Source: Thermoanaerobacterium sp. RBIITD | GTDB lineage: Bacteria; Bacillota; Thermoanaerobacteria; Thermoanaerobacterales; Thermoanaerobacteraceae | Reading direction: 5' to 3' | Assembly (NCBI RefSeq): GCF_900205865.1 | Contig: NZ_LT906662.1 | Coordinates: forward strand, 3,299,411-3,363,410 | DNA: 64,000 nt | Shown: positions 33,664-50,578 of the stretch, one piece after another | Position numbering within the stretch: position 1 is the first letter of the stretch | How the letters are laid out: every line of letters starts with the position of its first letter | The notes under the pieces: model-generated | Databases searched by the model: none | What the model saw: the letters and a program-made list of their open reading frames with translations, nothing else | What the model was told of the DNA's origin: nothing | Position numbers and translations under genes: made by a program

Positions 33664-34055
33664 TAAATTTTTGTATATGAGCGAAGCGTGTTGAAAGTTC
33701 ATATCTATGAGTAATGTCTGCATCTATACAACAATGAATACATTTTAAATTACATCTATTAGTTAGTTCAAAACCAATTGACTTGATATTATTAGATTCA
33801 AAAGTATTATTAATAAGCTTTTTATTAAGAAGTCTATTATAAACTTCTGTTATAAATTTTTTATCTTCATTATCTATTATGCAGTTATTTAATTCCTCAA
33901 TATCTAATCTATTATTTACAACATATTTAAATATATCATATACTTCCTTTTGATATTCTAATCCATTGTCCACTTTTTCTATTATATATTACAACGTTGT
34001 TATCATATTCAATGGTATGCGTATAATTACTAAAAACAATTTTTGAAGGGTTCAC
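33656..34055 (-). pseudogene. Radical-SAM peptide maturase, frameshifted and truncated
   Basis: From a GTG at 34055 (GGAGG upstream) the frame reads VNPSKIVFSNYTHTIEYDN and VVIYNRKSGQWIRISK. One extra base near 33944-33950 then moves it to a second frame, EVYDIFKYVVNNRLDIEELN, and on to SIGFELTNRCNLKCIHCCID, which holds the CxxxCxxC iron-sulfur motif of radical-SAM enzymes. The coding sequence stops making sense at the IS end (33663). The N-terminal leader-binding-like part plus an early radical-SAM motif is the layout of SPASM-type enzymes that modify ribosomal peptides. Only about a third of the gene survives. Confidence 0.78.
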
Positions 34056-34476: not shown

Positions 34477-35259
34477 TTATTCAATATCTATTAAATTTAA
34501 CTTTGTTGCCTCTACTATTGCTTCTTGAATGCTTTTTACACATAGTTTCTCAATTATTTTCTTCTTATGATATTTTACAGTAACTGGTTTAATCCCAAGT
34601 TCTCTTGATATTGTCAATTCTTTATAGCCTTTTGCAAGCATTATCAATATTTTTATTTGTTTGTCTGTAAAATCTATATTTTTGTTTACTAGTTCAGAAT
34701 TCTTTAAACAGTTTTTATATTCATTGGCAATTTTATCTGAAAGCAATTCGACAACCACATTCATTTCTTCTGTCATATCTTTTTCTATCGTTGAAACATC
34801 TAAATATCCTATTATTTTTTCATCTACAATTATTGGAGCAGCAATGCAATGCCATTTTTTTAGAATGTCACAATAATGATACTGGGGTTCCAAATATACT
34901 AATCTTTTTAGTTTCATCGCCATTGATATGGCATTTGTACCTATGGCTTCTTCTTTAAAAGATATGCCAATTGAACAGTCAAAATTGATGTGACATAGGA
35001 TTTTCTCATGACACATCGTATCCAAAAGATATCCTTCATCGTCAGTTAATAAAAATATGTATTTATCCTTTAAGCTCCTTAAAATATTGCCAACAACATT
35101 TTTAAATGTCTCAATTAATGTCATATTTTTCTTTAATCTGATTTGCAAATCATTTCCTCTTGAAATTATTGCAGGATGTGCAATCGAACTTGTAAGCCCT
35201 GCTTCTACGCATCTTTTGTATGAATGAAGTATTTCATCATATATTTGCATATTTCCCAT
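34477..35259 (-). CDS. GAF-domain LuxR-type transcriptional regulator
   Basis: A 260-aa protein. The N-terminus (HSYKRCVEAGLTSSIAHP) and the GAF domain (about residues 50-170; GISFKEEAIGTNAISMAM, KKWHCIAAPIIVDEKIIGYLD) are of the AcoR/sigma-54-activator type, but the AAA+ domain is absent. Instead the C-terminus is a LuxR-type HTH (FTDKQIKILIMLAKGYKELT; ISRELGIKPVTVKYHKKKII). It probably senses a small ligand and controls neighbouring genes with SigA. The ATG at 35259 has GGGAG 6 bases upstream. Neighbours are a broken maturase gene and an IS remnant, so its targets may be partly gone. Confidence 0.82.
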   Translation of the reverse strand: MGNMQIYDEILHSYKRCVEAGLTSSIAHPAIISRGNDLQIRLKKNMTLIETFKNVVGNILRSLKDKYIFLLTDDEGYLLDTMCHEKILCHINFDCSIGISFKEEAIGTNAISMAMKLKRLVYLEPQYHYCDILKKWHCIAAPIIVDEKIIGYLDVSTIEKDMTEEMNVVVELLSDKIANEYKNCLKNSELVNKNIDFTDKQIKILIMLAKGYKELTISRELGIKPVTVKYHKKKIIEKLCVKSIQEAIVEATKLNLIDIE

Positions 35260-35283
35260 ATAAATCTCCCGTAAAACTTTCAA

Positions 35284-36165: not shown

Positions 36166-36843
36166 CTAATTGTTCAAGTAGCTTAGAATCTTGCCATCTT
36201 GTATTGTTATGCATACATCTGCTGATGCTGCTATATCTTTATTATGAGTTACCATAATCAAAGTCTGTCCAAATTTTTCTACACAGAGTTTAAAGAATTT
36301 CATCACTTCATCCGCTGTTTTACTGTCTAAATTACCTGTTGGTTCATCTGCAAATATTATATCTGGTTTGTTTGATAGTGCCCTTGCTATTGCTACTCTT
36401 TGCTGCTGTCCTCCTGAGAGTTCATTTGGAAAGCTTTTTATCTTGCTCTCTAGTCCTAAAATTTCTATTATTTCCGATATGTAGTCCTTATCTATTTTTT
36501 TATTATCTAATGATACTGGCAATGTTATATTTTCATACACGTCTATAACTGGTATAAGGTTAAAGCTTTGAAATACAAATCCGAAGTTTCGCCTTCTCAG
36601 TATCGAAAGTTTTTCTTCTGATAGATTAAATATATTCTCACCATTTAATAATACTTCACCTGATGTAGGCACATCTAGTCCTGCCATGCAGTGAAGCAGC
36701 GTACTCTTACCTGAACCGCTGGGGCCTATTATAGTAGTGAATTTTCCATTTTCTATAGAAACTGATACTTCCTTTAAAGCCTCTACTTTATTGTCACCTT
36801 TACCGTATATCTTAGTCAATTTTACTGTCTCTAATATGCTCAT
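36166..36843 (-). CDS. ABC transporter ATP-binding protein (MacB/Bce type)
   Basis: A 225-aa ATPase: Walker [15 protein letters not shown]-loop [12 protein letters not shown], signature [15 protein letters not shown], Walker [14 protein letters not shown], and the switch His in MVTHNKD. All catalytic residues are present. The LolD/MacB-type GNLDS ending indicates partnership with FtsX-type permeases, the nearest being the gene 17 bases upstream. The ATG at 36843 has GAGGTGGAG before it. Confidence 0.95.
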
Positions 36844-36860
36844 AATCTCCACCTCATCTT

Positions 36861-39419
36861 TTATTCGATTATGTTTAGGCCTTCTACTATATTAAGCTTT
36901 TCTACTTTCTTTGCAGATACATAAGATGACAATATGCATATAACAATAACTATAGCACTGTACAATAGTATTGGTATAACTGGAAATTTAAATTGCAGCC
37001 TTTCGCTTATGTTAAATCCAGCCTTGTACTGCCTGTTTACCAAACTGTAAAATGAATAAACGTTATAACTGCCTATTAAAGCCGCTATTATGCTGCTTAA
37101 AAGGCCATAAATAATCGATTCTTTTATTATCATGCTTTTAAGCTGCTTGACTGTCATGCCTATTGCTCTAAGTGTGGAAAACTCATTTGTACGTATCAAT
37201 AAGTTGGTTTTTAGCGTATTATATACATTCATGCCTGCTATTAGTAATATCAATGCTACGATCACCATGTCTGATTTCAATACTCCCGTAAATCCTTTTT
37301 GGCTCTTTTCTATATAACTTAGCTTGCTTTCCACACCTGCAAAAGGCTTGTCCTTTAGAATCTTGTTTATACTATCATACACATAAGTGTCCTTTCCCGC
37401 CTCAGACTGCACACTGATCTGGTCATATGTACTTTTCCCTGAAATGGTCATTAAGTACTTTTGAGGAAGGATTATCTCCATCCTGGCTCCCCGTGTACTG
37501 TCACCTTTAGCTGTCCATTCCTGCTTTAATAGTGCACCTACTCTGATATTTCCCTCTTCATATGCTATTTTGCCATTTCTGATAACAGGAATCCTTATTG
37601 TCATGGTATCACCAACTTTTAAATCTTTTCTAATTCCCTCGAGCTTATGTTTAAAAATATCATAATAGTAATTAAATACTATTGCATTTGGATATTTATC
37701 TGATGAATCATTCAGCGATGACATGTCCCCTTTATCTATATACTTCTTAAATCCCTGCAACTGATCATCATCATAGCCTTTTACTTCTATCATTGTTTCC
37801 ACATTTCTATTTGTATCTGAAATTCCATTGTACTTTTTAAAGTCATTTTCTAAACCATTTACATCAGATTCCAAAAAACCTTCCATAGATACTTTTGTAC
37901 CTACTTTTTTCACTCCTTCTATCTGAGATATGGCTTTTACATCATCATTTGTATAACCTGTAAAATATAGATCTATATTTGGACCAAACAACAATTTAAA
38001 ATCATAGTCCTGCATGTTTAAAACATACGGTGTTGTATTATACACCGCATCTCGGTTGTTAAGAAATGCAATATCATCTATAAATAAATATCCTGCCATT
38101 GCTACAGATACAACTATTATTATAGTCCTCCACTTATTTCTCCACACATTTTTATATGCCATCTCACCTGTTATGCCAGATATCTTTTTTATAAACTTAT
38201 GGTATCCTCTATTTTTCTGCCTTTTTCCTGATTTATCACTCTTTCTCATAGCTTCTATCGGTGATATCCTGCCTGACATCCATATGGGTATTATACTTGA
38301 TAATATGACTGTTGCTGTACCGACTATTACTGCATTCCATATGTTTTTCCCACTTATGTACACTGTTGATTGTGATACATCTAAAAATGCAAAGTTAAAC
38401 AACTTCATCCCAATATATGAAAATGCAATACCCATCAATAGACCAAGAGATAATCCAATGATGAGAATAAATAAGCTTTGAAATCCTATTATCAGTCTCA
38501 CTTGTTTCTTTGATGACCCTATAGCTCTCATCATGCCTATTTGTTTTATCATGTCTATTAAAGATATGTTAAACATGTTATATATAAGAAGAATCGCTGT
38601 AATTACTATCAAAATATTAAAATGACGTACAGAATCATTCGTATTTTGAGAACTGTAATCATCAAGTGCTGTTACCAGTTGTATATTTAGATCATAATCC
38701 CATCTTCCTATATTATATCTCTCTCTTATCTGATTCAACTGACCCGATAGATTAGCCTTTGATTTCAATTTGACGATTTCTTCATATGTTATAAGATTGT
38801 CAGGCAGTACATTTTTTTCACCTTCTTTAAAGTATGTGAACCCTCTCAGTGAATAGTACCCCTCATAATATTGTTTGGGCTTATCTAATATCCCTACTAA
38901 TTTGAAGGACTTGTTTTCCATGTATATTTGATTCATGCCGTTTTCATCTTTATATTCCTTTTTGATTTTAAAATTTATTGTCTCACCCAGCTTTTCTTTA
39001 AGTCCCATCTTTTTTAAAGCCTGTGATTCTAATACTATTTCTCCTTGCTTATTTGGTAAATGACCTTTTATAAGAGTGTATCCATTCATTTCTATGTAGT
39101 CTTTGTCTGTTGAATTTAATATCATTGAAATACCATTATCAGTAACGAGATTTCCTAGATTAGCTGCTTCTGCAGATTTACTTACGTCTTTATCATTTTT
39201 TATTTTCTCAGTCAAGTCTTTATTTAGATTAGTAAATATACCCTGATATGTTCCATACATTTTGTAAATATTAGCAAGCTGGTTTCTGCTCTGGCTTTCA
39301 AATATAACGTTAGTACCAAATACAAGCATTACTGCCAAGGCGACACCTAATACTAAAGCAATCGTCCTTCCTCTTTGTTTTTTCAGATATGCTAATGCTA
39401 AATGTATATATACATTCAT
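36861..39419 (-). CDS. FtsX-type ABC permease (large, MacB-like), copy P1'
   Basis: An 852-aa permease. Membrane helices: one near residues 18-36 (TIALVLGVALAVMLVFG), three around 265-385 (ILIVITAILLIYNMFN; LFILIIGLSLGLLMGIAFSY; then AVIVGTATVILSSIIPIW), one near 435, and three at the C-terminus (MVIVALILLIAGMNVYNTL; IIYGLLSSIIAALIGS; LLYSAIVIVICILSSYV). Two extracellular domains separate them. The FtsX fold occurs twice. It is a close paralogue of the protein encoded at 45843-48410; most of the N-terminal half and the central linker are nearly identical. Such proteins export or sense peptides, or extract lipoproteins. Confidence 0.93.
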   Translation of the reverse strand: MNVYIHLALAYLKKQRGRTIALVLGVALAVMLVFGTNVIFESQSRNQLANIYKMYGTYQGIFTNLNKDLTEKIKNDKDVSKSAEAANLGNLVTDNGISMILNSTDKDYIEMNGYTLIKGHLPNKQGEIVLESQALKKMGLKEKLGETINFKIKKEYKDENGMNQIYMENKSFKLVGILDKPKQYYEGYYSLRGFTYFKEGEKNVLPDNLITYEEIVKLKSKANLSGQLNQIRERYNIGRWDYDLNIQLVTALDDYSSQNTNDSVRHFNILIVITAILLIYNMFNISLIDMIKQIGMMRAIGSSKKQVRLIIGFQSLFILIIGLSLGLLMGIAFSYIGMKLFNFAFLDVSQSTVYISGKNIWNAVIVGTATVILSSIIPIWMSGRISPIEAMRKSDKSGKRQKNRGYHKFIKKISGITGEMAYKNVWRNKWRTIIIVVSVAMAGYLFIDDIAFLNNRDAVYNTTPYVLNMQDYDFKLLFGPNIDLYFTGYTNDDVKAISQIEGVKKVGTKVSMEGFLESDVNGLENDFKKYNGISDTNRNVETMIEVKGYDDDQLQGFKKYIDKGDMSSLNDSSDKYPNAIVFNYYYDIFKHKLEGIRKDLKVGDTMTIRIPVIRNGKIAYEEGNIRVGALLKQEWTAKGDSTRGARMEIILPQKYLMTISGKSTYDQISVQSEAGKDTYVYDSINKILKDKPFAGVESKLSYIEKSQKGFTGVLKSDMVIVALILLIAGMNVYNTLKTNLLIRTNEFSTLRAIGMTVKQLKSMIIKESIIYGLLSSIIAALIGSYNVYSFYSLVNRQYKAGFNISERLQFKFPVIPILLYSAIVIVICILSSYVSAKKVEKLNIVEGLNIIE

Positions 39420-39455: not shown

Positions 39456-40118
39456 CTATCGTATTTCTCCATCAACGATAGATAATATTCTGTCTGCACT
39501 TTGTGCTATATTTTCATTATGTGTTATCAATACAAGTGTCTGATTATATTTTTTAATAGAATTTTTTATCAGGTTCATTACTTCACCTGTCGTTTTTGTG
39601 TCTAAATTCCCCGTGGGTTCATCTGCTAATATTATACTGGGCTTTGCTGCCAATGCTCTGCCTATTGCCACTCTCTGCTGCTGCCCTCCTGAAAGCTGAT
39701 TTGGTAAATGTCTTTGTCTTTCTGTTAACCCTAAAAATTCTATCAAATCATCTATATATTCTTTATCTGGTATTTTTTTATCTAGTCTTACTGGCATTTC
39801 TATATTTTCTCTTACATTTAATACTGGTATCAAATTGTACTGCTGAAATACGAATCCTATATTTCTCCTCCTGTATATAGCTAATTTGTCCTCAGATAGC
39901 TTATATATATCCACACCATCTATCTCAACTGTTCCTTCTGTTGGTTTATCAAGTCCTCCTAATAAGTGGAGCAATGTTGATTTTCCACTTCCGCTTGGTC
40001 CTACGATTGCCAAAAATTCACCTTTTTCTACATTTATGTTTATATCCTTTAGTGCGTGTACTTTATTTTCACCCTTTCCGTAAACTTTGTTTAAATTTAT
40101 CGTTTTTAATATAACCAT
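39456..40118 (-). CDS. ABC transporter ATP-binding protein (MacB/Bce type), second intact copy
   Basis: A 220-aa ATPase with Walker [14 protein letters not shown], signature [15 protein letters not shown], Walker [14 protein letters not shown] and LITHNENIAQSAD. It starts MVILKTINLNKVYGKGENK. Its DNA is almost the same as the deleted copy at 42914-43177 in both ends, showing a recent duplication. AGGAG lies 10 bases upstream of the ATG. It should pair with one of the two flanking permeases. Confidence 0.95.
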   Translation of the reverse strand: MVILKTINLNKVYGKGENKVHALKDININVEKGEFLAIVGPSGSGKSTLLHLLGGLDKPTEGTVEIDGVDIYKLSEDKLAIYRRRNIGFVFQQYNLIPVLNVRENIEMPVRLDKKIPDKEYIDDLIEFLGLTERQRHLPNQLSGGQQQRVAIGRALAAKPSIILADEPTGNLDTKTTGEVMNLIKNSIKKYNQTLVLITHNENIAQSADRILSIVDGEIR

Positions 40119-40187: not shown

Positions 40188-42755
40188 TCATTGATCATTT
40201 TTGATCATATCAACTACTGCTGTTTTTCTTATATTCATAGATGATAGGTATGTTGTTGCAATTGTTACTATAAAATTTATAATGATAACAATCAAATATT
40301 CTCTGTATTGTATCTTAAAGATGGGATTTATATATATAGCTAAATATTTATTATATAAAATATATTGAACCAACACTCCAAAGATAATTACTACTACACT
40401 TGATATAGCTCCATATAAGAACCCTTCAGCTAAAAACATCTCTTTCAGGCTTTTGTTTGTAGTGCCGACAGCTCTTAACATGCCAAACTCTCTCATTCGC
40501 GATGCAATATTATATTTAATATTGTTTGCTATATTAAATACTCCCATAATGAACAGTATCATTACAATTGCATTTATAAATCTGTGCTTATTTTCATTCA
40601 GTATATTAAAATTTTCTATTTCTTTATCTAAATCTCTTAAAATTACTCCAGGTCTCTTATCAATTATTGATTTAATCTTTTTATATAAGACATTATGATT
40701 TACTCCTCTTTCTTTGTTGATGCTTATAATCTTATACTGAGTTATCCCCGTATCCTTTTTAAATATATCCGAGGATAGGACAACATCAACGCTGTTATTT
40801 ACAGTATAATAATTATCGTAATCCAACAGATTGTTTACTATTGCCGCCACAGTATATTCTTTATATTCATAGCTATCGTCATTATAATTAATTTTCCAGC
40901 TTTCCTCAGAATTTGTTCCCTTGTTTGAAAAAGCAACTCTTATTTTATCTCCCACTTTGAAATTTGCAACGTAAGGCCTTTTATTTTCTGTATTTATGGG
41001 ATTGGGTATCCTCACAATGGCAAGATTTTCTTTTTTCATCCTGTCAATATCAATTTTGCCTTTTACCAAATATTTTCTTAACTTGGCAAGAGATTTATCA
41101 TCATAACCGTACATATTATCTTTTAAAATATATTCTTCCGATTTATCAGCCGCCTTTAAATTTTTAACTAACATCCCGTTCATCAAATCTTTTATATATG
41201 GAGTGCTGTTTAAATTTTCAAAGTACATAGGTTCGGATATATGTTCACCGCTTAACATAAGTCTTGAATATATTACCTGTATAGCTGATAAATCCCTTAC
41301 TCCGTTTAATGACCTTATTCTCTCTAGTTCTTTGCTACTTAACCCGTCGGTTTTTTTCGCACCGGGTACAAGATTTATTTTATAGTCGGAATTATACCCT
41401 ATGCTATCTGCTATATTGTCTACTTGCCTTTCTTCTAAAAAACTTAAGTAGCTTGCATTTATAAAAAGTATGCCTGCAATACTTATTGATAGTATAATCA
41501 TTATAAAGCTTCTGCTGTTAGAAAGAATATTCCTTTTAGTTACAATTGAATATATGGACAGGTTTTTCCCTGAGGCTACTTTTTTATATATTTTTTTATT
41601 GCATTTTTCTCTTAGTCCTAAATTTTTTCTTATAGCTTCTATAGGTGATATCTTTGATATGGTTATATAGACTGCAATAACAATCAAAAGTATGACGGCT
41701 GCTGTAACAATTACAGGTATAATAAAGGCTTCCTTAGTTATAACAAGCCGGCTTATGTTGACAGCTCCTTCAGTAAATACATTTCCAACTAAACCGCTTA
41801 ATAGCTTTGAACCGATCAGGCCTAATATAATACCTATAGGGACACCCATTGTGCTCAATATAAGCAATTCATATAATGTTATTTCAATCAATTGCTTTCT
41901 ACTGCTACCTATAGCTAATAAAATTCCGTATTCTGATATTCTTTGAAGAATTGATATGCTGTATATTCCATATATAACTATAAAAGAAGCTACCAATATT
42001 ACAAGTAATGAAAAAATATTGTTTTTATATATATTATTTAATTTCCCATATGCCTCTATTAGCGTCGTGTTTTTAACTATGTCATCGCTCTTCACATTCA
42101 ATTTCTTTGCCAGTAAAGATGTCAATTTATTTATATTGTTTTCATCTTTAAATGTCACCATAGAAATATTTCTGTTTCCTTTAAAATCGTCACTAATAGG
42201 CAAAAATGCCTGTAAGGTCATACTTCTTTTAAATTCTGGTCTGTCTTTCAATATTCCCACCAATTTATACGTTTTTGTTTCCCTTCTGTCTTCCAGTTTA
42301 AGTTGCAGGTCACTGCCAACTTTAGGTTCTTTCCCAAGAACATTTAAGACCCACTCTTCAACAGCAATTTCATTATCTTTCTCTGGATACCTTCCTTCTT
42401 TGATAAATGAATTACCACTGAAAGAGCTTCCTAATTTTATGTATTCTTTATCTGCCCTTAGAATATTCAAATAAAAATCATCAGTTAAGGCAACCGAATC
42501 ATAATACTCTGCAAATCCTCTGTCTTTTATTGATTTATCCTTTTTTATTTTCTCTATCTGATCATTGTCTAATTTTGTAAAAACCACATGGTAACTTCCT
42601 TCGTCATATTTTATGCTATCAATATTTGCCTGGTTGGCACTTTGGCCCAATATTATTATACTTGCAATAACAGCAACACTTAGGATTATAGCCACCAACA
42701 CAGAAAAAGTCCTTTTTTTGTAATATTTGATATATTGTAATGATAATTTAAACAT
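40188..42755 (-). CDS. FtsX-type ABC permease, copy P2'
   Basis: An 855-aa permease with the same two-FtsX-domain layout: TM near residues 17-36 (FSVLVAIILSVAVIASIIIL), a central three-helix block (SLLVILVASFIVIYGIYSI; then ELLILSTMGVPIGIILGLIG; IPVIVTAAVILLIVIAVY), a linker with KISPIEAIRKNLGLREK, a TM near 415-433 (FIMIILSISIAGILFINAS) and three C-terminal helices. Related to the 43195 product (type II), less so to the 36861/45843 pair (type I). AGGAGG lies 10 bases upstream of the ATG, inside the end of the subtilase remnant. Confidence 0.92.
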   Translation of the reverse strand: MFKLSLQYIKYYKKRTFSVLVAIILSVAVIASIIILGQSANQANIDSIKYDEGSYHVVFTKLDNDQIEKIKKDKSIKDRGFAEYYDSVALTDDFYLNILRADKEYIKLGSSFSGNSFIKEGRYPEKDNEIAVEEWVLNVLGKEPKVGSDLQLKLEDRRETKTYKLVGILKDRPEFKRSMTLQAFLPISDDFKGNRNISMVTFKDENNINKLTSLLAKKLNVKSDDIVKNTTLIEAYGKLNNIYKNNIFSLLVILVASFIVIYGIYSISILQRISEYGILLAIGSSRKQLIEITLYELLILSTMGVPIGIILGLIGSKLLSGLVGNVFTEGAVNISRLVITKEAFIIPVIVTAAVILLIVIAVYITISKISPIEAIRKNLGLREKCNKKIYKKVASGKNLSIYSIVTKRNILSNSRSFIMIILSISIAGILFINASYLSFLEERQVDNIADSIGYNSDYKINLVPGAKKTDGLSSKELERIRSLNGVRDLSAIQVIYSRLMLSGEHISEPMYFENLNSTPYIKDLMNGMLVKNLKAADKSEEYILKDNMYGYDDKSLAKLRKYLVKGKIDIDRMKKENLAIVRIPNPINTENKRPYVANFKVGDKIRVAFSNKGTNSEESWKINYNDDSYEYKEYTVAAIVNNLLDYDNYYTVNNSVDVVLSSDIFKKDTGITQYKIISINKERGVNHNVLYKKIKSIIDKRPGVILRDLDKEIENFNILNENKHRFINAIVMILFIMGVFNIANNIKYNIASRMREFGMLRAVGTTNKSLKEMFLAEGFLYGAISSVVVIIFGVLVQYILYNKYLAIYINPIFKIQYREYLIVIIINFIVTIATTYLSSMNIRKTAVVDMIKNDQ

Positions 42756-42769
42756 CTATTATATGCCTC

Positions 42770-42912
42770 CTAACTAAATGCATCCTCAAATATTTGCCTA
42801 TTTGCTCTTCCATCTTTGCCCAATACTTTTACCACAAATATTTCAACATCATTAATTTTCTCTTTATAGTTGATACGCAAGAAGTTCCATGTCCATTCTC
42901 GCCATCATTATC
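42770..42912 (-). pseudogene. Subtilase (S8) remnant
   Basis: After the stop of the deleted ATPase the minus strand reads DNDGENGHGTSCVSTIK, the NGHGTxC catalytic-His motif of subtilisin-like proteases. A one-base shift in the following A-rich stretch moves it to KINDVEIFVVKVLGKDGRAN and FEDAFS then stop, the next conserved subtilase strand (VKVLgxxG). The Asp and Ser motifs are missing. It is a fragment of an S8 protease gene, truncated at both ends and frameshifted. Subtilases often process peptides beside such exporters. Confidence 0.72.
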
Positions 42913-42913
42913 T

Positions 42914-43177
42914 CTATCGTATTTCTCCGTCAACGATAGATAATATTCTGTCTGCACTTTGTGCTATATTTTCATTATGTGTTATCAATACAAGTGTCTG
43001 ATTATATTTTTTAATAGAACTTTTTATTAGGTTCATTACTTCACCTGTCGTTTTTGTGTTTAAATTACCGGTGGGTTCATCTGCTAAATACTTTATGTTT
43101 ATATCCTTTAGTGCGTGTACTTTATTTTCACCCTTTCCGTAAACTTTGTTTAAATTTATCGTTTTTAATATAACCAT
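42914..43177 (-). pseudogene. ABC ATPase with in-frame internal deletion
   Basis: An 87-codon frame joins MVILKTINLNKVYGKGENK and HALKDINIK directly to [20 protein letters not shown] and LITHNENIAQSAD. Compared with the 220-aa copy at 39456-40118, roughly residues 29-146 are missing: Walker A, Q-loop and the LSGGQ signature are lost, while Walker B and the switch His remain. It cannot hydrolyse ATP by the usual mechanism. The frame is kept and the ribosome site is intact, so a short protein may still be made. An in-frame extension upstream to 43315 overlaps the permease gene and is not the start. Confidence 0.85.
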
Positions 43178-43194: not shown

Positions 43195-45750
43195 CTAATT
43201 TATTGTGCTGATAGATTCTACTATACTCATACGCTTTACCCTTTTTGATACAATAAATGTAGCTGAAAATCCTAAAAGGATATTTATTATTACTATGAAA
43301 AGATATATTTTCCAATCAATTGTAAATTTTGGAGTGATTAAAATTGGACCTAAGTATTTAAATAATATCACCTGTCCAGTCAGTCCAAATATCACAGACA
43401 AAGTGCTTGAAAATATTCCATATGTCATACCTTCAAAAGTTATCATCTTTCTGAATTCTTTGTTTGTAATGCCAACGGCTCTTATCATGCCAAACTCATT
43501 TACTCTCGATATTAAACTGTAACTTACATTATTGATTATATTTAAGAAGCTTATGGCAAATAGTACTATTACAATGGTATTTATAAATATAAGCTGATTT
43601 GTCGCAAATGCCTTTATTTTCTGCTTTTCATTGCTTAGATTTAAAACTGTTGCTCCTTGTGTTCTTTTAGCAATTTTCAAAATCTGATTGTACAATTTTT
43701 CACTGTTATAACCTGGTTTTACATTTATATCAATGAGTCTGTAATTTTTAAATCCGCTTATTTTCTGTAAAATATCGTTAGATATGACAACTTGAACACT
43801 ATTATTGCCTGCATAATAATCGGAAGAATCTATTAATTTTTCTACTATTGCTCCCACAGTAAATTCTTCCTCTTTAAATTGTGCATTTGCATCTTCCATT
43901 CTAAAAAATTCTTCTCCTGTATCCCCATCTTTTCTAAAACTTTCCGTTATCTTGTCTCCAACTTTTAAATTCACCACATCAGGACTTAAATGTTTAGTGT
44001 TCATTGGATGTGGTATGGCAATAATAGCAATTTTTTCCTTTTTCATTTTTTCTATGTCTATCTGTCCTTTTTTTACATATTTTTTCATCTCTTTAAGAAG
44101 CTTATCATCATATCCATAAATATCATTTTTCAATATGTACTCGTCACTATTTGGTTCTTTAACAAGCAGGCCATTAAGTACTTCTTTAAAATAAGGAGAG
44201 TCATTTATCTGTTCAAAATATAAAGGCTCAGCTATATTTTCTTTTTTCAGTTTCATTCTCCCGTATATCGGCTGTATTGTTTTAACTTCTTCTATACCTT
44301 CTAAGTTTTTTATTTCTTGAATGTCTTCAAAAGGAATACCCACTGATAAATTTGTACCGGGTATTATTTCTATTTTATAATCGGTATTTATCTTTGATGT
44401 TTCGGCCTCTTTATTTATTTGAGCTGCTGTAAGCTCTGCGTAAAAATTTGATATTATGAATATAGTGCTCCCCAAGCACATAGATAGAATTATCATATAG
44501 AAACTTTTTTTATTTCTAAAGATGTTTCTAAATGAAATGTATTTTGAAAATGGTAGAATTCTATATAAGAAATCTGTCTTAATTAATACTTTTTTGTATT
44601 TTATATCCGTGTTTAAATTTTTTCTTATTGAGTCAATAAGCGTTAGCCTTTTTATGCTTCTATATGTAACCAACGTAACTATAATTATAGAAATAAGGTT
44701 AATTATTATGGACATCAAGAAAACTCTCGGAGATAGAACTATATTTTTTATGTCGACTTTGCCTTCTGTGAATAGATTCCCTGCTATTGAGCTTAAAAAT
44801 TTCGCTCCCGCAAGACCACCCACAATTCCGATTGGTGTGCTAATAAGTAGTAAAGTTAATAATTCATAAAAAAGCAGCATCAAAATCTGTAAGGAACCTG
44901 CTCCAACTGCCCTCATTATTCCATATTCAGATAGCCTTTGTAATATGGATATATTGAAAATGCCTAAAATTACTATTAATGATACTACCCCTGCAATAAG
45001 TGATATCAATAAAAAAGTAGGATCTATTTTTTTGCTGCTTCCTAATGATTCCAGAAGCATATTATTTTTTCTAACATATTTATTATCTATTTTCAAGTCC
45101 TCGGCTATGTTTTGTATATCTTTATTTATGTCAGTATTTTCATCAAACTCTACATAAACTTGTGCATCTTTATAAGAATCATTTTCATTTAGATTAAGGA
45201 TGGCTTCCATCTGCCCTGATGATTTTAACCGTGGCCTATCTTGTAAAATCCCGGTTAAAATGTATGTTTCGTTAGTCTTTTTCCCATATAAATTGAAATT
45301 AATCTTAGTACCTGGCTCCGGATTTACCCCCATGTTTTTTAAAACCCATTCTTCTATAGCTATTTCATCATCTTTTACCGGAAACCTTCCCTTAATTACC
45401 TTAGAATTAGTTAACTGTACATAATCTTTATTTGCCTTTATTATATTTAGAATTATTCGCCCATCAGGTACAGTAGAATCGTAGTATGAAGAGATGCCAA
45501 TTTTTTCAACATTCGGTTCATTTTTTATCATTTTGAGTTTTGATTCATCTATATCGATATTATACCTAACATGGTAGATTCCGCTTTCATATTTTGTTTT
45601 AGTTACATTAGCATGCTTGGCACTATCAGCTAGAGTTCCAACTCCTACTATTAATGCTGTACATAAGATAATGCCAAGACAAATAGCTAATGATCTTGAT
45701 CTATACTTTTTTATATATGCTGAAATTACTTTAAAAAGATATTTATTCAT
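43195..45750 (-). CDS. FtsX-type ABC permease, copy P2
   Basis: An 851-aa type II permease. TM near residues 20-40 (LAICLGIILCTALIVGVGTL), central helices (FLLISLIAGVVSLIVILGIF; LLTLLLISTPIGIVGGLAGA; MSIINLISIIIVTLVTY-type), a TM near 415-433 and three C-terminal helices (FINTIVIVLFAISFLNIINN onward) ending RMSIVESISTIN. It is followed by the deleted ATPase, so it must borrow an ATPase encoded elsewhere, the nearest intact one being 39456. GGGAGG precedes the ATG. Confidence 0.93.
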   Translation of the reverse strand: MNKYLFKVISAYIKKYRSRSLAICLGIILCTALIVGVGTLADSAKHANVTKTKYESGIYHVRYNIDIDESKLKMIKNEPNVEKIGISSYYDSTVPDGRIILNIIKANKDYVQLTNSKVIKGRFPVKDDEIAIEEWVLKNMGVNPEPGTKINFNLYGKKTNETYILTGILQDRPRLKSSGQMEAILNLNENDSYKDAQVYVEFDENTDINKDIQNIAEDLKIDNKYVRKNNMLLESLGSSKKIDPTFLLISLIAGVVSLIVILGIFNISILQRLSEYGIMRAVGAGSLQILMLLFYELLTLLLISTPIGIVGGLAGAKFLSSIAGNLFTEGKVDIKNIVLSPRVFLMSIIINLISIIIVTLVTYRSIKRLTLIDSIRKNLNTDIKYKKVLIKTDFLYRILPFSKYISFRNIFRNKKSFYMIILSMCLGSTIFIISNFYAELTAAQINKEAETSKINTDYKIEIIPGTNLSVGIPFEDIQEIKNLEGIEEVKTIQPIYGRMKLKKENIAEPLYFEQINDSPYFKEVLNGLLVKEPNSDEYILKNDIYGYDDKLLKEMKKYVKKGQIDIEKMKKEKIAIIAIPHPMNTKHLSPDVVNLKVGDKITESFRKDGDTGEEFFRMEDANAQFKEEEFTVGAIVEKLIDSSDYYAGNNSVQVVISNDILQKISGFKNYRLIDINVKPGYNSEKLYNQILKIAKRTQGATVLNLSNEKQKIKAFATNQLIFINTIVIVLFAISFLNIINNVSYSLISRVNEFGMIRAVGITNKEFRKMITFEGMTYGIFSSTLSVIFGLTGQVILFKYLGPILITPKFTIDWKIYLFIVIINILLGFSATFIVSKRVKRMSIVESISTIN

Positions 45751-45842: not shown

Positions 45843-48410
45843 TTATTCAATTACATTAAGCCCTTCTACTATATTAAGCTTTTCTACTTTCTTTGCAGAT
45901 ACATAAGATGACAATATGCATATAACTATAACTATAGCACTGTACAATAGTATTGGTATAACTGGAAATTTAAATTGAGGCAAATGAGTAGCACCAAATC
46001 CATGGCTATAGTCTACATTTAGCATTTTATAAAATCTATAAACTCTATATCCACCTATTAAAGCCGCTATTATGCTGCTTAAAAGGCCATAAATAATCGA
46101 TTCTTTTATTATCATGCTTTTAAGCTGCTTGGCTGTCATGCCTATTGCTCTAAGTGTGGCAAACTCATTTGTACGTATCAATAAGTTGGTTTTTAGCGTA
46201 TTATATACATTCATGCCTGCTATTAGCAGTATTAGTGATACAATCAAAAAATCGGATTTTAATTTTCGAGTACCAAAGTTTTTATATGTCTCAATATAGC
46301 TTAGCTTACTTTCCATTTCTGCAAATGGCTTATTCTCTAAAATCTTGTTTATTCTATTATACACATAAGTATCCCTTCCTGGTTTAGACTGCACACTGAT
46401 CTGGTTATATGTACTTTTCCCTGAAATGGTCATTAAGTATTTCTGAGGAAGTATTACCTCCATATACCTTCCTCGCGTACTATCCCCTCTAAATATCCAT
46501 TCCTGTTTTAGTAGTGCACCTACTCTGACATTTTGCTCTTCATATGTTATCTTATCACCTTTGGCAACAGGAATCCTTATGGTTATGATATCACCTACAT
46601 TTAAATCTTTTCTAATTCCTTCGAGCTTATGATTATTTAAAATATCATAATAATAATTATACACAACTGCATTTGGATATTTATCTGATGAATTATTCAG
46701 TGATGACATGTACCCTTTATCTATATACTTCTTAAATCCCTGCAACTGATCATCATCATAGCCTTTTACTTCTATCGTTGTTTCCACATTTTTATTTGTA
46801 TTTGAAATTCCATTGTACTTTTTAAAGTCATTTTCTAAATCATTTACATCAGATTCCAAAAAACCTTCCATAGATACCTTTGTACCTACTTTTTTCACTC
46901 CTTCTATCTGAGATATGGTTTTTACATCATCATTTGTATAACCTGTAAAATAAGGGTCTGTATTTGTACCAAATGATAGTTTAAAATCATTATCCTGCAT
47001 GTTGGTAATTGTAATAGACATTGCACTAATTAAACTTTCCTTATTAACAACTGCGATATCATTTATAAATAAATATCCTGCCATTGCTACTGATACAACT
47101 ATTATTATAGTCCTCCACTTATTTCTCCACACATTTTTATATGCCATCTCACCTGTTATCCCAGATATCTTTTTTATAAACTTATGGTATCCTCTATTTC
47201 TTTGCTTTCCACCTGATCTATCGCTCTTTCTCATAGCTTCTATTGGTGATATCATGCCTGATATCCATATCGGTATTATGCTTGAAACTATGACAGTTAA
47301 GGCTCCAACTTTTACAGCATTCCATACGTTTTTCATGCTTATGTATACTGATGATTCTGATACATCTATATTGGTAGATACAAAGCTATACAGTTTAATT
47401 CCAAAGTAGGAAAATGCAATTCCCATCAAAAGGCCAAGAACTAATCCAATGATGAGAATAAATAAGCTTTGAAATCCTATTATCAGTCTCACTTGTTTCT
47501 TTGACGACCCTATAGCCCTCATCATACCTATTTGTTTTATCATGTCTATTAAAGATATGTTAAACATGTTATATATAAGAAGAATCGCTGTAATTACTAT
47601 CAATATATTAAACTGATATGTAAAAGCATTTGTGTTTTGAGCACTAAAATCATTAAGGGCTGCTATTAGCTGGCTATTTACTTCATAGTCCTGTCTCCCT
47701 ATATTGTACCTTTCTCTTATCTGATTTAATTTTCCCGACAGGTTTGCATTTGATTTTAGCTTGACGATTTCTTCATATGTTGTCAGATTATCAGGCAATA
47801 CATTTTTTTCGCCTTCTTTAAAGTATGTGAACCCTCTCAGTGAATAGTATCCATCATAATATTGTTTGGGCTTATCTAATATCCCCACCAATTTGAACGA
47901 TTTGTTTTCCATGTATATTTGGTTCATGCCGTTTTCATCTTTATATTCTTTCTTGACTTTAAAATTTATTGTCTCACCCAGCTTTTCTTTAAGTCCCATC
48001 TTCTTCAGTGTTTGAGACTCTACCACTATTTCACCTGGAGAATCTGGTAGATGTCCTTTTATAAGAGTGTATCCATTCATTTCCATGTAGTCTTTGTCTG
48101 TTGAATTTAATATCATTGAAATACCATTGTCAGTAATGAGATTTCCTAAATTAGCAGCTACTGCAGATTTACTTGCGTCTTTATCATTTTTTATTTTGTT
48201 TACCATGTCTTTATTTAGATTAGTAAATATGCCCTGATATGTTCCATACATTTTGTAAATATTAGCAAGCTGATTTCTGCTCTGGCTTTCAGATATGACG
48301 TTTGTACCAAATACAAGCATTACTGCCAAAGCGACACCTAATACTAAAGCAATCGTCCTTCCTCTTTGTTTTTTCAGATATGCTAATGCTAAATGTATAT
48401 ATACCTTCAT
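45843..48410 (-). CDS. FtsX-type ABC permease, copy P1
   Basis: An 855-aa type I permease, close paralogue of the 36861-39419 product: the same KVYIHLALAYLKKQRGRTIA start, identical linker HKFIKKISGITGEMAYKNVW and near-identical ending VSAKKVEKLNIVEGLN. Differences cluster in the extracellular loop after the fourth helix and before the last helix (MLNVDYSHGFGATHLPQF here). It is the first transport gene after the sigma/regulator pair and has an ECF-type promoter motif 53 bases upstream of its ATG. The ribosome site (GGGTTGAT) is weak. Confidence 0.93.
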   Translation of the reverse strand: MKVYIHLALAYLKKQRGRTIALVLGVALAVMLVFGTNVISESQSRNQLANIYKMYGTYQGIFTNLNKDMVNKIKNDKDASKSAVAANLGNLITDNGISMILNSTDKDYMEMNGYTLIKGHLPDSPGEIVVESQTLKKMGLKEKLGETINFKVKKEYKDENGMNQIYMENKSFKLVGILDKPKQYYDGYYSLRGFTYFKEGEKNVLPDNLTTYEEIVKLKSNANLSGKLNQIRERYNIGRQDYEVNSQLIAALNDFSAQNTNAFTYQFNILIVITAILLIYNMFNISLIDMIKQIGMMRAIGSSKKQVRLIIGFQSLFILIIGLVLGLLMGIAFSYFGIKLYSFVSTNIDVSESSVYISMKNVWNAVKVGALTVIVSSIIPIWISGMISPIEAMRKSDRSGGKQRNRGYHKFIKKISGITGEMAYKNVWRNKWRTIIIVVSVAMAGYLFINDIAVVNKESLISAMSITITNMQDNDFKLSFGTNTDPYFTGYTNDDVKTISQIEGVKKVGTKVSMEGFLESDVNDLENDFKKYNGISNTNKNVETTIEVKGYDDDQLQGFKKYIDKGYMSSLNNSSDKYPNAVVYNYYYDILNNHKLEGIRKDLNVGDIITIRIPVAKGDKITYEEQNVRVGALLKQEWIFRGDSTRGRYMEVILPQKYLMTISGKSTYNQISVQSKPGRDTYVYNRINKILENKPFAEMESKLSYIETYKNFGTRKLKSDFLIVSLILLIAGMNVYNTLKTNLLIRTNEFATLRAIGMTAKQLKSMIIKESIIYGLLSSIIAALIGGYRVYRFYKMLNVDYSHGFGATHLPQFKFPVIPILLYSAIVIVICILSSYVSAKKVEKLNIVEGLNVIE

Positions 48411-48462
48411 TTCTATCAACCCTTGTTTTTATATAGTTCCTGCATAACATACTATATATAGA

Positions 48463-48488
48463 GACGTTTAAGTCATAAGAATGACTCA
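48463..48488 (-). promoter_or_regulatory. ECF-type promoter motif upstream of permease P1
   Basis: TGAGTC (48483-48488, minus) and CGTC (48463-48466) are separated by 16 bases, the same architecture as the motif before the sigma gene (50306-50331) and that of Bacillus ECF sigma factors (TGAAAC-N16-CGTA/C). Transcription would start roughly 45 bases before the permease. Confidence 0.65.
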
Positions 48489-48576
48489 CATACATGCCAT
48501 ATTGATTCGCCACAAAATCACGTGCTGCAAAATATAGAATTGCACAAATTTTTATAAAGAATCCTTTCAATATTAA

Positions 48577-49755
48577 TCAATAAACACTTGACTCTGACAG
48601 AGTAATATCAATATTTCTGTACTTTGATTTTAAGTCATCTATTGTAGGTTTTAGTTCACCATGTACGAAATTTGTAGAAATTTTTATAAGTATTTTATCG
48701 CCTTTATTAAACTCTTCTATATAAACTACTTTAGTGTAATCTTCATTGTAATAGCACAATTGAATAGAGTGATTATAAGGATTAGATGGATTAGGATCTT
48801 TTTTGTATTTCCATGCATTGAAGAATTTTAAGCCTGTGGGAAGTTTATCAGGTATAATTAAATCAAAATCTGATGCTTTTTTAGCATCTTCTATTGAGTT
48901 AAATATATACATGTTGTCAAAAGTATTATATACATATACATCTTCTGGCAAATTTGGCTTTAAATCATCCTTATTTACTAATGTATTGAAATCTATATTA
49001 TATGTTACTATTCTTTTGACATCTCCGTTTAGTTCTTCATGTTTAACTATAAAATTTGTCTTTTTGTCAATCCAGTATGTGTCTGTTTTTATTCTAACTT
49101 TTACTTTACTTTTTTTTATTTCTGTCTCAACTTTAATTACATTAGTGTCGATACCGTCTAAATTTTCACTTCCAACCAGTTTATAATTACCATATTTATA
49201 TATATCATCCACTTGCGATTTTAGTTCCAACACAGGTGATGCCAATGGATTAGTCCATTTCAAAACACCTTTTTTCGATTTTTTATCATAGTTCAGTGTC
49301 TTAGTGCCATCAGCAATCAATATTTGATCACACCCCTCCATTCGATAGCTTAATGGCCCTGCATATATTTCTTTCCAGGACTCCTTTTTTATCACTTTAT
49401 TATTTTTTATATTTGTCTCTACAATGCTTGTATCAAGTACTATGGTTTTCACACTATCATAAGTTTTCTGCATTGCATAAACGATGTTATAAGATGGTGT
49501 TAAGGTACCATCCCCGATTTTTGTACCTATAAAAGGTAAATTAAATAATTGTATTGATGTGAAGAATATCAAGGTGGCAGCAATAAGCGATGACTTCCTC
49601 TTTTTTTTAGCTTTGATGCTTTTAATCACATCTTTGTCTTTATAATACACGTCTTTCAAATCTTTTAAATTTTTTAGCAGTGATATCGTTTCTTCATCAT
49701 CAAAAGTCGATTTACTGTTAATATTTAATTCATCAATAAGCTTAATTAAGGTCAT
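48577..49755 (-). CDS. Membrane-anchored sigma-factor regulator with LolA/MucB-like domain
   Basis: A 392-aa protein: a charged cytoplasmic N-terminus of about 55 residues, one TM (about 56-74, SSLIAATLIFFTSIQLFNL), and a large external part. The first external domain (about 90-250; GSENLDGIDTNVIKVETEI, DTYWIDKKTNFIVKHEELNG) resembles LolA/MucB-RseB sensor domains. The C-terminus (DLIIPDKLPTGLKFFNAWKY onward) resembles DUF4367. The start overlaps the sigma gene's stop, so the two are co-translated. It is probably the anti-sigma factor or its sensor, but the HxxxCxxC zinc motif of typical anti-sigma domains is absent. Confidence 0.8.
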   Translation of the reverse strand: MTLIKLIDELNINSKSTFDDEETISLLKNLKDLKDVYYKDKDVIKSIKAKKKRKSSLIAATLIFFTSIQLFNLPFIGTKIGDGTLTPSYNIVYAMQKTYDSVKTIVLDTSIVETNIKNNKVIKKESWKEIYAGPLSYRMEGCDQILIADGTKTLNYDKKSKKGVLKWTNPLASPVLELKSQVDDIYKYGNYKLVGSENLDGIDTNVIKVETEIKKSKVKVRIKTDTYWIDKKTNFIVKHEELNGDVKRIVTYNIDFNTLVNKDDLKPNLPEDVYVYNTFDNMYIFNSIEDAKKASDFDLIIPDKLPTGLKFFNAWKYKKDPNPSNPYNHSIQLCYYNEDYTKVVYIEEFNKGDKILIKISTNFVHGELKPTIDDLKSKYRNIDITLSESSVY

Positions 49756-49757
49756 CA

Positions 49758-50270
49758 CTATTCATTTCGCAATGCCTCCTTTTTCATCAATTCACGCAAT
49801 TTAATTATTGCTCTATACTGAATATTTTTTATGCTTGATGTACTCTTGCCCAATATCTTTGCGCAATCTTTTAGGCTGAGACCTTCTATAATGCGAAGTT
49901 CTATAACTGTTCTGTATTTTTCAGGTAAAGACAATAGGCAAGAATAAAGGCGATCTTTCTCTTCAAGATTTACAACATATTCTTCTAACATTACGTTATC
50001 AGAAAACATCTCCACATTCATTTCATTAAAATGTATATCACTTATTTTCTTTTCTCTGTATTTATCTATCATAATATTCCTAGCAATGCTTTTTAAATAA
50101 GGCAAAAAAAATTTTTTATCCCGCACGTTTCCAAAATTTTTAATTGCCCTCAAATATGTTTCTTGAACAATATCATTTGTATCATCCACATCATTCACTC
50201 TATAATAGACGTATTTAAATAATAACGGCCATGTTCTATCGCATAAATATTCAAGATCTGGATAATCCAT
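49758..50270 (-). CDS. ECF-type RNA polymerase sigma factor
   Basis: A 170-aa sigma-70-family protein. Region 2 is seen in LFKYVYYRVNDVDDTNDIVQ and ETYLRAIKNF, with YLKSIARNIMIDKYREKK; region 4 in LPEKYRTVIELRIIEGLSLK and DCAKILGKSTSSIKNIQYRA. Region 3 is absent, as in ECF factors. It is encoded directly upstream of a membrane regulator and an ABC array, and an ECF-type motif lies before it, suggesting autoregulation. The ATG at 50270 has TGGGAGG upstream; an earlier in-frame start at 50294 lies before that site. Confidence 0.93.
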   Translation of the reverse strand: MDYPDLEYLCDRTWPLLFKYVYYRVNDVDDTNDIVQETYLRAIKNFGNVRDKKFFLPYLKSIARNIMIDKYREKKISDIHFNEMNVEMFSDNVMLEEYVVNLEEKDRLYSCLLSLPEKYRTVIELRIIEGLSLKDCAKILGKSTSSIKNIQYRAIIKLRELMKKEALRNE

Positions 50271-50305
50271 TTTAACCTCCCACATAAACTGCATCTATAA
50301 TAAAA

Positions 50306-50331
50306 GACGTAAAAATTATAAAAAGGTCTCA
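50306..50331 (-). promoter_or_regulatory. ECF-type autoregulatory promoter motif
   Basis: TGAGAC (50326-50331, minus), 16 bases, then CGTC (50306-50309). A start about 7 bases further gives a leader of about 30 bases to the sigma ATG. A separate TTGACA (near 50351) lies upstream and could supply basal SigA transcription. Confidence 0.7.
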
Positions 50332-50340
50332 CATAAATAT

Positions 50341-50466
50341 TTATGTAATACAAAATGTCAACTTAAAAAAAGAGATACTGTCGAGAATTTTATTAATTGA
50401 TTGCGTCATCCACTTTAGCATCTTTCTAATTTTCCTAACCCTTTCACCTTGTGTTAGAAATTCCAT
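50341..50466 (-). pseudogene. 41-codon remnant of an HTH regulator
   Basis: From an ATG with GGTGGAG upstream the frame reads MEFLTQGERVRKIRKMLKWM and then an unrelated tail to a TAA. The first 18 residues have the look of the N-terminus of XRE-type HTH/TPR regulators common in these clostridia (GERIRxIRKxL). The rest of the HTH is missing, so it is a truncated relic, or a small protein of unknown role. The frame overlaps the region just upstream of the ECF promoter motif. Confidence 0.45.
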
Positions 50467-50535
50467 ACATTATCTCCACCTTTAAACAAAATATTTTGTT
50501 TTATATATTAAATAAACGCTCTAACAATATTAACT

Positions 50536-50557
50536 AAGCCAGGTTTTCACCCGGCTT
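50536..50557 (-). terminator. Terminator hairpin after ftsY
   Basis: A 9-bp stem (aagccaggt / acccggctt, one G-U pair) with a GAAA tetraloop in the transcript, 22 bases after the ftsY stop. The following bases are only moderately U-rich. It separates smc-ftsY from the sigma/ABC island. Confidence 0.7.
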
Positions 50558-50578
50558 ATAATCTTTCATTTGATAAGA

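Follow-up and report, generated by a model that had tools for sequence, protein, structure and literature searches.

In Thermoanaerobacterium sp. RBIITD, a gene for an ECF sigma factor stands ahead of a long array of ABC transporter genes, and two closely matching promoter-like sites, one before the sigma gene and one before the first permease gene, raise the question of whether this sigma factor controls both itself and the transporters. The window, that is, the whole 64,000-nucleotide stretch analysed here (contig NZ_LT906662.1, positions 3,299,411 to 3,363,410), was studied together with its genome by pattern searches and protein searches, and the window genome was compared with eight other genomes of the genus. 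The locus very probably represents a self-amplifying ECF sigma/anti-sigma module dedicated, through the two sites P1 and P2, to a single transporter operon.

Two putative promoter sites without a third

The two sites, found by motif search, are these:

50306 to 50331, minus strand: P1, putative ECF-type promoter TGAGAC-N16-CGTC 5' of the sigma gene (TGAGACCTTTTTATAATTTTTACGTC); -35 box 50326-50331, -10 box 50306-50309, transcript start predicted at about 50298-50301
48463 to 48488, minus strand: P2, putative ECF-type promoter TGAGTC-N16-CGTC 5' of the first permease gene (TGAGTCATTCTTATGACTTAAACGTC); -35 box 48483-48488, -10 box 48463-48466

The sequence-only reading that this analysis follows up had reported both motifs, equally spaced by N16 and with nearly the same hexamer, as correctly oriented and placed before the sigma gene and the first permease gene. 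This is exact: both lie on the minus strand, and CGTC is 35 bases from the sigma start codon (ATG 50270) and 52 bases from the permease start codon (ATG 48410), the latter being about 46 bases from its expected transcript start. TGAGNC-N16-CGTC occurs twice in the window, against 0.04 matches expected from dinucleotide shuffles, and the genome-wide search (3,402,993 bases, ~3.40 Mb) returned P1 and P2 and nothing further; the reversed-pattern control matched six times in the same genome. Given that the motif was defined from P1 and P2 themselves, a post-hoc test was applied in which both 120-bp upstream regions were shuffled 100,000 times. A common hexamer (one mismatch allowed) followed by CGTx at an equal spacing of 15-18 bases arose in 340 of these shuffles (~0.3%), and a TGA-type hexamer pair in four (0.004%). 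The likeness of the sites extends past the boxes (TATGTGAGNC...TTAT...ACGTCT), with 27 of 37 bases identical in an ungapped comparison; at least 27 identical bases are reached by only about 15 of 1,830 pairs formed from other upstream regions, and the best-scoring of those pairs belong to duplicated genes or lipoprotein paralogs. A genome search with the extended pattern, allowing up to three mismatches, likewise found P1 and P2 only. Loosening the motif to TGANNC-N15-17-CGTC gave 85 genomic matches against 112 in the reversed control, an unenriched set that adds no regulon members, and the recurrent TGAGAC matches spaced by N15 or N17 belong to sequences present in multiple copies, presumably ribosomal RNA. 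An Rfam search returned no RNA element. The earlier proposal that the sigma factor controls itself and the transport array thus keeps its core, which the uniqueness of the sites and their recurrence with the sigma gene favor, but its "regulon" is too broad a term: because the genome holds no third close match, what is predicted is a local circuit of two transcription units.

The surroundings of the sites bear on how they may be used. A terminator-like hairpin 3' of ftsY (50535-50558, minus strand) sets that gene apart from P1. No terminator-like site was found between the anti-sigma gene and P2, so transcripts from P1 may continue into the permease gene. The -35 boxes of both sites are without the AAC common in many ECF promoters. 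Further, the spacer of P1 contains TATAAT and a TTGACA lies about 30 bases upstream of its -35 box, and the sigma gene could therefore possibly be transcribed from a housekeeping promoter. These elements, and the likeness that runs beyond the two boxes (TATGTGAG..., within the 27 of 37 identical bases), would also suit a distinctly improbable alternative, namely that P1 and P2 are a shared transcription-factor operator while transcription proceeds from housekeeping promoters. However, the common bases fall on ECF-type boxes, 16 bases apart and at promoter distance from both start codons; the changes seen in Thermoanaerobacterium butyriciformans (G007) are confined to the spacer; no well-spaced sigma-A pair was found at P1 or P2; and no obvious DNA-binding regulator adjoins the sigma gene.

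Between P2 and the permease gene lies a mini-ORF of nine codons (MQELYKNKG, stop TGA; window 48416-48445) that is preceded by GGAGG in three other genomes of the genus (G001, G005 and G007) and is possibly a leader peptide or the relic of a gene first served by P2. In the interval between ftsY and P1 (window 50360-50470), a short reading frame resembles by eye the start of an XRE-type regulator (MEFLTQGERVRKIRKMLK...); it is absent from the other three sigma-bearing species.

The sigma factor

The gene behind P1 is the following:

49758 to 50270, minus strand: ECF sigma factor, 170 aa (Pfam Sigma70_r2, 7e-12, and Sigma70_r4_2, 2.5e-12; TIGR02937, 4.7e-28)

The protein scores 97.9 bits against TIGR02937, for which the cut-off is 42.9, and is above the cut-offs for Sigma70_r2 and Sigma70_r4_2 as well. 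It belongs to the ECF (group IV sigma-70) factors as these are delimited by regions 2 and 4 only and a length of about 170-200 aa. A bipartite promoter of its own, shared with the target operon, is a common, if not universal, property of an ECF sigma factor, and the P1/P2 motif supplies one whose use is predicted. Translation probably starts at ATG 50270, with a ribosome site (GGGAGG) at 50276-50281 and a leader of about 30 bases; the open reading frame's start at 50294 is probably not the true one, because it falls 11 bases past the -10 box, almost at the expected transcript start.

The resemblance of the two sites to the promoters of Bacillus SigW, SigM and SigX extends to overall shape, but not to the letters, since the SigW consensus is TGAAAC-N16,17-CGTA (PMC2375139), with TGAAAC in place of TGAGNC and CGTA in place of CGTC. 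Nor does the protein join these factors: it falls below all curated family cut-offs, with 65.9 bits against 243.1 for SigW, 74.6 against 147.95 for SigM_subfam, and 77.3 against 260 for SigX. Remoter ECF proteins, about 30% identical, are too distant for promoter comparison (footprinting). Apart from a somewhat unusual sensor and the very small size of its predicted regulon, the sigma factor is ordinary for the ECF group.

A probable anti-sigma factor with an apparently fused sensor

Between the sigma gene and P2 is a gene that the sequence-only reading passed over:

48577 to 49758, minus strand: probable membrane-anchored anti-sigma factor, 393 aa, so assigned from position and topology; in relatives its gene overlaps the end of the sigma gene

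The 393-aa protein has a short charged cytoplasmic N-terminus of about 55 aa, a single membrane helix at aa 58-77 and, beyond it, a long extracellular part. Class I anti-sigma factors carry a four-helix anti-sigma domain at the N-terminus, in many cases with a membrane helix and a sensor behind it; the 393-aa protein would suit this class in its gene order, its N-terminus of about 55 residues, its single helix and its extracellular domain, but searches of Pfam and NCBIfam gave no match at E 0.001. The zinc motif, also absent, is optional in class I anti-sigma factors (PMC7406223). A structure predicted from the sequence alone was of too low confidence to be informative (pLDDT 38), and a profile search of solved structures returned only matches at E 0.3 or worse.

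A paralog (G000:C1:2522035-2523006) is 50% identical to the 393-aa protein over aa 56-387, differs in its N-terminus, and likewise comes after an ECF sigma gene, although a different one. A like sensor joined to an unlike N-terminus would make sense if each N-terminus were fitted to its own sigma factor. The paralog matches LolA_like (3.2e-9; 37.1 bits, cut-off 30) and, weakly, DUF4367 and MucB_RseB; the 393-aa protein itself gives no match to the RseB/LolA-type profiles (LolA_like, MucB_RseB, LolA). By way of the paralog's Pfam match, the extracellular part is probably RseB/LolA-like and DUF4367-like, and the simplest reading of the whole protein is probably that of an anti-sigma factor with an RseB-like sensor. 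As a probable membrane-anchored anti-sigma factor, it is also the likely sensor of the circuit.

The second ECF sigma/anti-sigma pair, with its LolA-like sensor, occupies L060:6368-8013 (G000:C1:2521367-2523012) and is followed by several similar lipoprotein genes. Upstream of it is a conserved GCCAAC...TGTCTATAG element, possibly a different ECF promoter, and TGAGNC-N16-CGTC is absent from the loci of the paralogous sigma gene. In G225, a distant member of the phylum, a LolA/RseB-like gene (L119:4962-5873) adjoins an ECF sigma gene and a Sigma_reg_N/C anti-sigma gene, and its product is a distant relative of the sensor of the 393-aa protein.

Relative to its three orthologs, the anti-sigma gene of the window carries one extra T after codon 7 (ATGAATAGTGATGACCTTAATTAAGC; window 49740-49765), so that translation must begin at GTG 49758 or ATG 49755, at a greater distance from the ribosome site. 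A frameshift past residue ~278 divides the G007 gene in two. These frameshifts, which reflect either damage or an error of sequencing, weigh against the proposed module.

The transporter array and its origin

Behind P2, the array reads as follows:

45843 to 48410, minus strand: permease B1, 855 aa, first gene after P2 (two FtsX blocks, 1.4e-25; MacB_PCD, 1.7e-12)
43195 to 45750, minus strand: permease A1, 851 aa, FtsX/MacB type, 99.8% identical to the copy in the G005 peptide cluster
42776 to 43177, minus strand: remnants, an ABC ATPase without residues 29-163 and then an S8 peptidase fragment (tblastn with the intact G005 proteins)
40188 to 42755, minus strand: permease A2, 855 aa, FtsX type
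39456 to 40118, minus strand: ABC ATPase 1, intact, LolD/MacB type (ABC_tran, 1.5e-36; best NCBIfam match LolD_lipo_ex, below cut-off)
36861 to 39419, minus strand: permease B2, 852 aa, ECF motif absent upstream
36166 to 36852, minus strand: ABC ATPase 2, intact, last gene of the array

FtsX and MacB_PCD are above cut-off in all four permeases, which together with the two ATPases places the array among MacB/LolCDE/FtsX-type (type VII) ABC transporters. From P2 to ATPase 2 there is no terminator-like site, against four expected, in keeping with a single long transcript.

G005 holds the same series at a second locus (permease A1, broken ATPase, permease A2, ATPase, permease B, ATPase), set among genes for radical-SAM/SPASM proteins, an S8 peptidase and an exporter. 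Clusters for modified peptides typically have this composition, although no precursor peptide was found. A similarly shortened ABC ATPase is also present in G001 and G005. Fragments of a radical-SAM maturase (33716-34034), of an S8 peptidase (42776-42942) and of an internally deleted ABC ATPase (42917-43177) lie in the window and are apparently the remains of the modified-peptide cluster seen in G005 (L105, L106). The sigma locus of G005 is simpler, with sigma gene, anti-sigma gene, P2, permease B and ATPase. Given that G005 has the transporter block elsewhere and this simpler sigma locus, and that the window retains only fragments of the cluster, the window layout looks as if the transporter block of the cluster had been attached to the sigma locus. 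The earlier suggestion of a "peptide stress" role was a fair guess, and it appears strengthened by a radical-SAM peptide cluster that shares the transporter array. Peptide export or immunity is the favored function of the transporter, because its genes recur in the sister genome's radical-SAM peptide cluster and remnants of such a cluster persist here.

A GAF-LuxR type regulator is encoded at 34477-35283 of the window; its gene adjoins radical-SAM genes in G005 (94% identical) and G004, and it could possibly control the peptide cluster.

Comparison across Thermoanaerobacterium genomes

Orthologs of the sigma gene occur in three of the eight other genomes (G001, G005 and G007), 96-98% identical and always beside ftsY, and P1 and P2 are at the same places in all four sigma-bearing genomes. 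A locus from T. butyriciformans matches at 98% identity. Only one further TGAGNC-N16-CGTC match, a TGAGGC site in G001, occurs among these four; in the five sigma-less genomes the pattern appears zero to four times, as scattered singles and never as the pair. This distribution bears on an improbable alternative in which P1 and P2 are real ECF promoters that are read mainly by another of about eleven other sigma-like proteins, the adjacent sigma factor being a target. The sigma protein has 12 matches in its own genome, several of them ECF-sized, and ECF promoter specificities can overlap. However, the pair is found only in genomes with this sigma gene, whereas ECF genes of other kinds occur widely across the genus, and since the genome contains no further copy of the motif, it does not appear to serve a different sigma factor at other genes.

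In P1, all 26 bases are the same in the three other sigma-bearing species, although farther upstream the window/G005 type and the G001/G007 type have unrelated DNA. In P2, the 10 core bases are unchanged in four species, against about one to two changes expected at such divergence, and two spacer changes occur in G007. The conservation predicted before orthologous sigma genes is therefore present in four of four genomes, but it makes a weak test, because the orthologs are 96-98% and the whole region 93-97% identical, and taken alone it is suggestive only. Likewise, a closeness at which any sequence would appear conserved leaves some room for a chance resemblance, functionless and passed to close relatives. 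This account is highly improbable, given that the motif occurs in two non-homologous upstream regions of one genome and is unique genome-wide, with a post-hoc corrected chance of about 0.3% in general and 0.004% for the TGA type.

Those copies of permease B that do not adjoin the sigma gene, at window 39419, in G001 and G004 and at the second locus of G005, have no such motif upstream; they lie directly behind an ATPase gene, operon-internal, and G004 is without the sigma gene. P2 is kept even in G007, where the permease behind it belongs to the other subtype (83%). The motif is thus tied to the sigma locus and not to the permease gene. That this ECF-type promoter pair serves predicted autoregulation and control of the adjacent transporter is well supported by its genome-wide uniqueness, by its recurrence in every sigma-bearing species, and by the absence of the pair where the sigma gene or the sigma-linked position is missing.

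Discussion

For the self-amplifying module proposed here, we infer promoter use, anti-sigma binding, signal and transport substrate as follows. Without a signal, the sigma factor would be held by the membrane-anchored 393-aa protein. Contact of the extracellular RseB/LolA-like part with an inducer would release the sigma factor; the inducer is probably a peptide, either membrane-active or made by the cell itself, or else an envelope signal of a related kind. RNA polymerase carrying the sigma factor would then read P1, providing more sigma and anti-sigma factor as feedback, and P2, providing permease B1 and the MacB/LolCDE-type permeases and ATPases that follow, and the transporter would remove or export the peptide. 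A peptide signal is favored because of the transporter family, the apparent peptide-cluster origin, and the known cases of SigW-yknWXYZ and MibX/MibW.

In B. subtilis, the ECF factor SigW and its membrane anti-sigma factor drive yknWXYZ, a MacB/FtsX-type transporter that gives protection from a toxic peptide (PMC3210768, PMC4887032). The present locus is similar in uniting an ECF sigma factor, a probable anti-sigma factor and a MacB/FtsX-type transporter, as well as in its -35 box, a 16-17 base spacer and a CGT in the -10 box. It differs in the motif itself (TGAGNC-N16-CGTC), in an apparent two-site regulon where that of SigW is wide, in a sigma protein under the SigW cut-off, and in a sensor distinct from RsiW. 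MibX/MibW, with PspX, are ECF sigma systems of actinomycete lantibiotic clusters (PMC6001450). Cluster-specific ECF control of ribosomal peptides of the MibX/PspX kind was set aside as a class for this locus, the sigma gene not lying inside an intact peptide cluster. In contrast to those systems, P2 is predicted to read only the transporter array, and the radical-SAM genes are remnants here, the intact set in G005 being elsewhere and without the motif. The phylum and the promoter sequence differ as well. By analogy, the circuit may nevertheless work like SigW/RsiW or MibX/MibW.

In E. coli, RpoE is autoregulated, and the extracytoplasmic control of its anti-sigma factor in the RpoE-RseA-RseB system involves an RseB/LolA-like domain (PMC8103513). 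Both traits would be shared by the circuit described here, in which, unlike RseA-RseB, the RseB-like domain is apparently fused to the anti-sigma factor in one chain and in a Gram-positive-type bacterium. A more elaborate reading, offered tentatively and rather doubtful in its full form, is that of a one-protein RseA-RseB relay: a fused RseB-like sensor would detect a modified peptide in a bacterium without an outer membrane, and a sigma factor with a two-promoter regulon would activate transporter genes acquired as an operon from a radical-SAM peptide cluster, immunity being separate from production.

A sigma factor that had not been characterised, from a genus of thermophiles used in industry, thus receives a promoter motif and a predicted target, in the form of a two-promoter circuit open to testing. 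Bacterial stress circuits of this type are already familiar; what is new is this Thermoanaerobacterium example. More broadly, the apparently fused sensor and the decayed radical-SAM cluster suggest that a dedicated envelope sensor can take over immunity transporters after the peptide has been lost.
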